Origin: Acidobacteria bacterium RIFCSPLOWO2_12_FULL_67_14b
GTDB taxonomy: Bacteria; Acidobacteriota; Vicinamibacteria; Vicinamibacterales; UBA2999
Direction: 5' to 3'
NCBI GenBank assembly: GCA_001768615.1
Contig: MELE01000015.1
Coordinates: forward strand, 1 to 38,538
DNA: 38,538 bases
Positions within the stretch are counted from its first letter, which is position 1. Each line of letters starts with the position of its first letter. Under the pieces are notes generated by a model that searched no databases, was not told the DNA's origin, and worked only from the letters and a program-made list of their open reading frames with translations. The translations under genes and the position numbers were made by a program. Below are positions 18,909 through 20,381 of the stretch, piece by piece.

Positions 18909-19197
18909 GAGAGGACTCGTCGCTGCGCTCCTCGTGGGACTCGCCGCTTCGCGGCTCGTGGGAGTCGCTCGCTGCGCTCGCTCCTGCGACTCACTTTGTT
19001 CGTAAGACAAATCCAAACTGCCTACGAGGGCTCGCAGAGCCCGAGTCCCACGAGTCGCGAAGCGACGAGTCCAAGGAGCGAGCGCAGCGAGCGACCCCCA
19101 CGAGCGCCGAGAGGCGCGAGTCCTACGACGAGCGAAGCGAGGAGTCGCAGGAGCGAGCGACTTCGACGAGGCCCGGAGGGCCGAGTCCGAGTATCAT
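18909..19197. repeat. Array of hairpins with variable stems and constant flanks
   Basis: The 306-bp gap between the permease and the flavoprotein gene contains at least four perfect hairpins: 18943-18955 (GCCGC stem), 19028-19042 (GGGCTC), 19054-19066 (GTCGC), 19104-19117 (GCGCC) and 19170-19182 (GGCCC) are the clearest, plus weaker ones near 19075 and 19131. Stem sequences differ, yet each is bracketed by near-constant flanks, CGAG before and (C)GAGTCC after; the first lies in opposite orientation. Loops are GAA-, GCA- or GGA-like. No gene or conventional promoter is visible in the stretch. Confidence 0.8.
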
Positions 19198-19214
19198 GAG
19201 CGCCGAGGGGACTC

Positions 19215-20381
19215 ATGGATCGCAGATCGTTGTTGAAATTTGGGGCGCTCGCATCCGTCGGCTTTGCCGTCGAAGGCTGCGCACCGAAGACCGCCAGGCC
19301 CCAGGTGAGCGCGCCGCGGCGGGCGCCGCTGCGGCTGCCGCTGGTGAACGCGTCGTGGGATCGCGTGATCCGCACGACCATCGGCCTGCGGCCGCATCGC
19401 CCGTCCGGCTTCGTCCTGAAGGCCGACAAGCTCGACGGCAAGACCATCATCCACAACTTCGGCCACGGCGGCGCCGGCATGTCGCTGTCGTGGGGCACCG
19501 CGTCGATGGCCACCGACCTGGCGATGGCGCACGGCGACCGGCGCGCGGCGGTGCTCGGGTCCGGGGTGGTGGGCCTGACCTCCGCGCGCGAATTGCAGCG
19601 GCATGGCTTCGCGGTGACGATCTACGCGGCGACGGTCCCACCGGACACCACGTCGAACATGTCGCTGGCGGGCTTCACGCCGACGTCGGGCCTGATCCAG
19701 TTCAGCAGCCGCACGCCCGAGTGGGACGCGCAGTTCCAGCAGGCCGTGCAGATCGCCTATCGGCGGCTGCAGTTGCTGATCGGGCCGAAGTACGGCGTGA
19801 CCTGGATCGTGAACTACGCGCCCACCGACAACGAACAGGCGGGACGCGGCACCAACCTGCTGCTGCCGGAAAGCGTCCAGGGATCGCGCACGATCCTGCA
19901 GCCCGGCGAACATCCGTTTCCGACCAAGTACGCGATCGAACGTCCTGAGATGCGCATCGAGCCGTCGATCTACCTCGACGCGCTGATGAGCGATTTCCTG
20001 TTGTGGGGCGGCAAGGTGGTGATCCGCAAGTTCGAGACGCCACGCGACATCATCGGCCTCAGCGAATCCGTCGTCGTCAATTGCACGGGCCTTGGCGCCA
20101 AGGCGCTCTTCGGCGATCCGGAGCTGGTGCCGCTCAAGGGCCAGCTCACCGTGCTGGTGCCGCAGCCGGAAATCACCTACGGCACGAGCGGCGGCTCGCG
20201 GGTGGCGAGCGCCGAGCCCGGGGTCGGCATCCACATGATGCCGAGGTCGGACGGCATCATCCTCGGCGGCACGTCACAGCGCGACGTGTGGACGATGGAG
20301 GTGGACGAGAAGGAGAGGACGCGGGTGGTCGAAGGGCACATCGAGTTGTTCAACGCGATGCGCAACCTGGCCCGTACGTAG
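19215..20381 (+). CDS. Tat-exported D-amino-acid-oxidase-like FAD oxidoreductase, apparently circularly permuted
   Basis: The 388-residue protein has a twin-arginine signal (DRRSLLKFG) ending in a possible lipobox (VEGC, Cys22). GAGGGG lies 4 nt before the ATG. The FAD-binding GSGVVG motif is at 115-120, not near the N-terminus. Ahead of it, residues ~50-105 hold GLRPHRP (57-63) and HNFGHGGAGMSLSWG (80-94), which in D-amino-acid/D-aspartate oxidases form the extreme C-terminus. Conversely, this protein ends with IILGGTSQRDVW and a helix (VVEGHIELFNAMRNL) that in those enzymes immediately precede the GLRP segment. So the order of segments is rotated. The likely reaction is oxidative deamination or a related FAD oxidation in the envelope; the substrate is unknown. 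Confidence 0.85.
   Translation: MDRRSLLKFGALASVGFAVEGCAPKTARPQVSAPRRAPLRLPLVNASWDRVIRTTIGLRPHRPSGFVLKADKLDGKTIIHNFGHGGAGMSLSWGTASMATDLAMAHGDRRAAVLGSGVVGLTSARELQRHGFAVTIYAATVPPDTTSNMSLAGFTPTSGLIQFSSRTPEWDAQFQQAVQIAYRRLQLLIGPKYGVTWIVNYAPTDNEQAGRGTNLLLPESVQGSRTILQPGEHPFPTKYAIERPEMRIEPSIYLDALMSDFLLWGGKVVIRKFETPRDIIGLSESVVVNCTGLGAKALFGDPELVPLKGQLTVLVPQPEITYGTSGGSRVASAEPGVGIHMMPRSDGIILGGTSQRDVWTMEVDEKERTRVVEGHIELFNAMRNLART

Follow-up and report, generated by a model that had tools for sequence, protein, structure and literature searches.

A circularly permuted D-amino acid oxidase-like flavoprotein family with one apparent origin and, in most members, an export signal

The gene and its parts

The window analysed here is the whole 38,538-nucleotide stretch of contig MELE01000015.1, from the assembly of Acidobacteria bacterium RIFCSPLOWO2_12_FULL_67_14b (GCA_001768615.1). 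On its plus strand, at 19215..20381, it contains an open reading frame that starts with ATG and encodes 388 amino acids plus a stop codon. Pfam, phmmer and a structural model agree in describing the product as a flavoprotein resembling D-amino acid oxidase (DAAO); its parts are in permuted order.

All of the parts lie on the same strand. Residues 1–24 (19215..19286) resemble an N-terminal export signal, with the sequence MDRRSLLK, a hydrophobic run, and a cysteine (Cys22) at a lipoprotein-like position. The moved segment, residues 44–106 (19344..19532), consists of the canonical C-terminal strands and helix, which now come first. Within it are GLRPHRP (residues 57–63, 19383..19403), which holds Arg59, and HNFGHGGAGMSLSWG (residues 80–94, 19452..19496), a flavin-side glycine-rich loop together with the start of the last canonical helix. 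From its alignment, we take Arg59 to be the equivalent of Arg283 of human DAAO, which holds the substrate carboxylate. A junction, residues 95–114 (19497..19556), leads from what was the C-terminal helix into the first strand of the Rossmann fold. The core, residues 107–388 (19533..20378), corresponds to the N-terminal and middle part of canonical DAAO. It carries GSGVVG (residues 115–120, 19557..19574), the dinucleotide-binding motif of the FAD domain, and His340 (codon 20232..20234), which aligns with the active-site tyrosine, Tyr228, of human DAAO. The sequence IILGGTSQRDVW forms residues 348–359 and is followed by a C-terminal helix, residues 365–387 (20307..20375), after which a canonical chain would enter GLRP. 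The translation confirms these motif positions, that of IILGGTSQRDVW included, which had been read earlier from the letters and open reading frames with no database search (the sequence-only reading).

The protein matches the Pfam DAO family with 97.9 bits (cut-off 27.9), in two stretches. Two alignments that include family members were used in what follows, A1 with 15 sequences and A3 with 61; all 61 sequences of A3, the window protein among them, match Pfam DAO (E 0.001).

Segment order in sequence comparisons

In DAAO and D-aspartate oxidase (DASPO) the segment with GLRP and HNYGHGG closes the chain, whereas in the window protein it precedes the core. A phmmer search of the whole protein against PDB sequences aligned residues 109–368 to residues 13–260 of human DASPO (6rkf), and residues 52–102 to residues 280–333 of the same chain, in swapped order relative to the core. 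With an E limit of 10, residues 40–104 alone matched 20 different PDB sequences. The best 17 (E 2.3e-8 to 0.035) are all DAAO or DASPO, and the match always falls in the C-terminal part of the chain, between residues 274 and 371; the other three are of an aminoglycoside acetyltransferase (E 0.27–0.35). The profile of the 61-member family was read in three chains, and there the core and segment pieces were each significant separately, with i-E values of 7e-34 and 7.1e-11 in 6rkf, 3.9e-26 and 1.8e-13 in 7ct4, and 1.6e-23 and 1.2e-9 in 8hy5. The sequence match in swapped order is beyond chance, and both pieces are homologous to the same parent, DAAO/DASPO. All 17 of the PDB sequences have the core match in front and the segment match last, so that no solved relative found by sequence is permuted.

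The window protein was also re-ordered, with the front segment put last. The best stretch of this query crosses the join in 17 of 17 DAAO/DASPO chains and spans nearly the whole length in 10 of them; against 6rkf, query residues 3–345 align to chain residues 14–333 (E 1.6e-18). In the other seven, which include 7ct4, human DAAO and 1c0i, the best stretch starts mid-core. The total score hardly changes, because the same homology is merely re-ordered: 16 of the 17 sequences rise by 0.4 to 8 bits (6rkf from 69.9 to 70.3, 9vpf from 59.0 to 67.0), and one chain, 1c0i, scores lower (57.5 to 54.2).

Predicted structure

AlphaFold2 gave a pLDDT of 78.7 and pTM of 0.78 with 15 sequences, and a pLDDT of 92.1 and pTM of 0.87 with 61. 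In the second model there are β-strands at residues 51–61, 67–73 and 76–82, a helix at 85–104, and a strand at 110–114, from which the Rossmann fold continues onward to the last helix at 365–387. When either model was compared with the PDB using Foldseek, ranks 1–33 were DAAO/DASPO entries, as we take 4qfc and 4qfd among them to be, with E-values for the second model of 2.5e-14 to 1.8e-11. Foldseek is a sequential aligner, and the TM-scores to these 33 are modest (0.51–0.58 by query, 0.54–0.67 by target, over 277–323 columns). They fit a match of the core without the moved piece, which is as expected for a permutation and is no direct proof of it. The window protein is predicted to share the DAAO/DASPO fold.

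These results bear out the main claims of the sequence-only reading. Its identification of the early motifs as the canonical C-terminal segment agrees with the whole-protein, segment-only and profile searches; the re-ordered alignment places the end of the chain where a canonical chain enters GLRP, as it had said; and the model shows the join that it proposed, with the former C-terminal helix (85–104) running into the first Rossmann strand (110–114). Structure prediction, which it had suggested as a check, produced a confident model whose PDB neighbours are DAAO/DASPO. Circular permutation, offered as the simplest reading, is supported, each testable step having held.

Relatives and their segment order

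Another suggested check was a search for homologues with the same segment order, and many were found. Segment and core profiles were run over 1751 open reading frames of at least 200 residues, from 183 loci. Both pieces are present in 169 of these, of which 135 are permuted, 34 canonical and none ambiguous, the 135 and 34 not being independent counts since some genes entered the set as two loci (L003 and L020, for example). Of the 34 canonical frames 29 were kept; the other five match only weakly and probably encode other DAO proteins. No frame of at least 200 residues from the 183 loci holds two copies of the segment at E 0.01, and none is an intermediate with the segment at both ends. A second copy of the HNFGHGG segment elsewhere, which was to count against permutation, was sought in the window and in its own genome and was found in neither: the six frames of the window give one significant segment match only, and the next-best match in the genome (92% complete) has an E of 0.008 over 38 residues, with a stop inside.

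The family is widely distributed. At a threshold of E 0.001, 15 of 40 relatives match, the window's own genome being counted among the 40; G033 does so with only a 55-residue piece, and the match in G013 has an internal TGA. In a sample of the phylum, 31 of 199 genomes match, 16 being read as permuted (two in split pieces), seven as canonical in two pieces and eight as short single pieces, one of which (G182, locus L130) a later profile search moved to canonical. The phylum of Sphingopyxis (G227) has matches in 27 of 299 genomes, 15 of them long, colinear and permuted. In that of Aureivirga (G231) the figure is 33 of 198, two permuted and the rest canonical or short. A scan of genome contigs confirmed 565 stretches, and the titles of the best 80 name Acidobacteria, Gemmatimonadetes, Gammaproteobacteria, Sphingomonas and other Alphaproteobacteria, as well as Aureivirga, Ekhidna, Luteolibacter, Zixiibacteriota and Dadabacteria; the genera in such titles were assigned to what we take to be their phyla. 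One contig titled Acidimicrobiia (locus L020) has 40,403 bases and a gene position identical to those of a contig (G003:C36, locus L003) of a genome in the window's genus, while a contig from the same taxonomic order (G035:C316, 7,081 bases, locus L021) carries an Acidobacteria title; the name Acidimicrobiia appears to be a mislabel.

In a plasmid collection 13 records match. Permuted proteins occur in those of Niveispirillum, Kozakia, Rhizobium, Bradyrhizobium and Nonomuraea, and canonical proteins in the opened records of Streptomyces, Nocardia and Mycobacterium lentiflavum. The order reading covered these, the further matches being in Mesorhizobium and in three more actinobacterial species, Streptomyces sp. 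BHT-5-2, S. fungicidicus and Streptantibioticus (two records).

The export signal

A Tat signal in front of the moved segment had also been claimed from the sequence, and the window protein does have an RR motif (in MDRRSLLK) and a hydrophobic run in that place. Arg3 and Arg4 are invariant in the 15 sequences of A1; across the 61 sequences of A3, both of them and Cys22 reach a conservation of 90% or more. The Pfam TAT_signal model scores below its cut-off for the window protein (7.1 against 22.7 bits).

Ahead of the segment, a strict RR motif is found in 120 of 135 permuted and 0 of 29 canonical frames, and a looser criterion, a hydrophobic run behind RR, gives 130 of 135 against 1 of 29; this contrast may be biased, since the query that collected the canonical sample was itself permuted and signal-bearing, related sequences were counted together, and the count covers the open frame up to the segment and so may include residues before the true start. 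The hydrophobic run is followed by [AGST]C in 114 of the 135 permuted frames. On these grounds the flavoprotein would be exported by Tat in folded form, and most members would be anchored through an N-terminal lipidated cysteine. The window enzyme is likely to be an exported flavoenzyme, of a kind often lipid-anchored, that acts on small amino acids.

Export is not universal among the permuted proteins, since no signal precedes the segment in L100, L101, L102 and L148; L149 offers no sequence ahead of the segment that could be judged. An RR signal is present in L150, which shares a branch with L100 and L102. One gain and one loss, or two gains, fit this pattern equally well.

Gene neighbourhood

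In the window, the permuted gene has a gene for a MacB/FtsX-like permease upstream and, on the opposite strand downstream, those for a prolyl oligopeptidase and an M20 peptidase. The surroundings were read in six genomes of the same genus (L184–L189), and all six retain the two peptidase genes next to the permuted gene; the link between peptidases and the permuted gene is at most suggestive. In Kozakia, a cytochrome c gene lies directly 3' of the permuted gene, and the other neighbours encode S9, S12-type and S15 hydrolases and a further DAO protein. In Rhizobium and Bradyrhizobium it lies between an FAD oxidoreductase and a thiamine-diphosphate enzyme (Pfam on Rhizobium). At the rhizobial plasmid loci L100 and L101, the permuted gene has no signal and multicopper oxidase genes are nearby.

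A different arrangement is seen at 11 of 105 loci (L064, L075, L076, L077, L082, L084, L086, L090, L093, L198 and L199; Pfam on L090), where hslV and hslU flank the permuted gene and all three share a strand. Nine of these loci have a named origin, in Sphingomonas and its kin; one further Sphingomonas locus, L097, is without the arrangement. A gene for a putatively exported flavoprotein is thus placed amid those of a cytosolic protease. Six gammaproteobacterial-type loci (L055, L061, L065, L068, L074 and L079) have in common a downstream gene for a protein of about 450 residues, the start of which was read in L055 and L061 and contains a CxxCH motif in both; that of L061 matches no Pfam family at E 1e-5.

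No single gene context is common to the family, and the neighbours differ between lineages. Gene neighbours were for this reason dropped as a pointer to the substrate. Directly upstream of the window gene, positions 18913–19200 are dense in direct and inverted repeats, with arms of up to 53 nt that are 79–100% complementary; an 18-nt element of this cluster has three copies in the genome, two of them there.

Active site and possible function

Conservation was counted in proteins reduced at 80% identity, 105 permuted and 26 canonical. Arg59 is invariant in both sets (105/105 and 26/26). The glycines of the FAD motif (Gly115, Gly117 and Gly120) and of the glycine-rich loop (Gly83, Gly85, Gly86 and Gly88) are present in all 105 permuted proteins, and His80 and His84 in 104 each. 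The position equivalent to Tyr228 is more variable. It is Tyr in 55 and His in 30 of the 105 permuted proteins, and Tyr in 23 of the 26 canonical ones; the window protein has His340, and all five members of the group L100, L101, L102, L148 and L150 have Tyr. Two further positions mark out the larger permuted group. Tyr322 is found in 99 of its 100 members, in three of the five other permuted proteins and in four of the 26 canonical ones, and Trp197, conserved in 95 of the 100, is not conserved in canonical proteins.

The best explanation of these observations, which we consider probable, is an FAD enzyme with a circularly permuted DAAO/DASPO fold that oxidises amino acids, probably of a single origin and probably exported by Tat. 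Such an enzyme would oxidise the alpha C–N bond of a small amino acid held by Arg59, and would pass the electrons to oxygen, or possibly to a cytochrome where a cytochrome c gene adjoins. The enzyme may act on something other than an ordinary D-amino acid, given that the Tyr228 equivalent is His in the window protein and Tyr in only 55 of the 105. This raises an alternative that we regard as possible though doubtful, in which the permuted fold is the same but the pocket has changed, and the enzyme either oxidises some other amine or acid or works as a dehydrogenase on a compound derived from peptides. The histidine in the window clade would suit such a pocket, as would the near-invariance of Tyr322 and Trp197 in the larger permuted group and their absence as conserved residues from canonical proteins, and the peptidase genes that adjoin in the window genus and in Kozakia. 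Retention of Arg59, the four loop glycines and, with one exception each, His80 and His84 argues for the amino acid-oxidising enzyme instead, as does the fact that the nearest solved structures are DAAO and DASPO.

Origin of the permutation

A tree was calculated from 48 rows with less than 52% core identity (28 permuted, 20 canonical), of which eight have an unusual amino acid composition. One branch separates the permuted from the canonical rows (support 100/94), so that a single change is needed on the tree. Leaving out the moved segment gives the same branch (support 99/93), although two canonical rows are long-branched there. The permuted rows form one side of the branch in 100% of 200 bootstrap trees, and in 98% when the moved segment is omitted. 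The single split also appears in a FastTree tree of 123 rows.

The junction is also uniform. From WG to GxGxxG it measures 20 residues in 109 of 134 permuted frames (one further frame has no recognisable motif). In 27 of the 29 canonical frames, the residues that follow WG and those that precede GxGxxG add up to a median of 25, with the nearest ATG taken as a guess at the start. Joined together, the two canonical ends would thus be roughly the length of the junction.

The permutation most likely arose once. Several independent origins would accord with the long branches and the broad distribution of the family, but are improbable in view of the bootstrap result and the constant length of the junction. 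The tree is unrooted, and its one change gives no direction; this is taken from the known enzymes, whose order is canonical. It might be supposed that the permuted order is ancestral and the canonical one derived; we think this very unlikely, as core first and segment last is the order of all 17 DAAO/DASPO sequences in the PDB, and presumably of more distant DAO proteins such as glycine oxidase. A single permutation of a canonical enzyme could plausibly have come about by tandem duplication, fusion and trimming; there is no intermediate among the classified frames. That the order is an artefact, whether of misassembly, of a frameshift or of two adjacent gene pieces having fused, can be rejected almost with certainty: two relatives have one stop each within the matched stretch (TGA in G013/L011, TAG in G148/L109), but the window gene has none, the window holds a single segment copy, and the same order in relatives from many genomes, including those of named isolates (Dokdonella fugitiva, Sphingopyxis panaciterrae DSM 27164 and Blastomonas natatoria DSM 3183, for instance), argues against assembly or frameshift error.

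Relation to known enzymes

The proteins appear to form a family that is circularly permuted, DAAO-like, of one apparent origin and mostly equipped with an export signal. With DAAO itself (human and pig; 7ct4 from Rasamsonia; 1c0i) the window protein shares the FAD motif, the core, GLRPxRP, the HNYGHGG loop, the carboxylate-binding arginine and the predicted fold; it differs in segment order, in its N-terminal signal and in the histidine at the Tyr228 position. DASPO (6rkf from human, 9vpf from Cryptococcus) shows the same swap of two pieces relative to the window protein, and 6rkf is the best match of the 61-member profile (E 2.9e-48). ThiO glycine oxidase and DadA belong to the wider DAO superfamily and give local matches. 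Membership of either was rejected, with 41.8 of the 250.8 bits of the NCBIfam cut-off for ThiO, and 28.7 of 383 and 23.3 of 494 bits for DadA. None of 25 curated NCBIfam models, of 40 listed as matching, reaches its cut-off.

Pfam files the window protein under the general DAO family, and the annotated records examined name the permuted proteins only as FAD-dependent oxidoreductases. No description of a permuted DAAO was found in a literature search at the level of abstracts, in which subscription journals are thinly covered. The permuted set is worth marking, as a plain match to Pfam DAO does not show the changed order.

Natural circular permutants of well-studied enzyme folds are uncommon. 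Here a permutation is spread over several phyla, seems to have arisen once and is accompanied by an export signal, which makes it a testable case of a permutation re-addressing an enzyme. We tentatively hypothesise that one ancient permutation gave rise, from a cytosolic DAAO ancestor, to a separate and widespread family of exported flavoenzymes, by freeing the N-terminus for a Tat lipid anchor and opening a periplasmic niche with its own substrate. The permutation would have mattered because the N-terminus of canonical DAAO leads straight into a buried FAD strand.

Bacterial canonical DAAO-like proteins (L106 from Streptomyces, L107 from Nocardia, and L166–L183 from the Aureivirga phylum) are found by the same profiles, in both pieces. 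Their segment is last, most have a short head, with a median of 10 residues before GxGxxG (27 frames), and there is no strict RR motif, as counted above. Locus L130 encodes a longer protein of 733 residues, in which a DAAO-like part in canonical order is followed by about 370 more residues. Some members of the family (L021, L024, L025, L036, L037, L038, L039 and L043) have a C-terminal extension with an LESFFG-like end.
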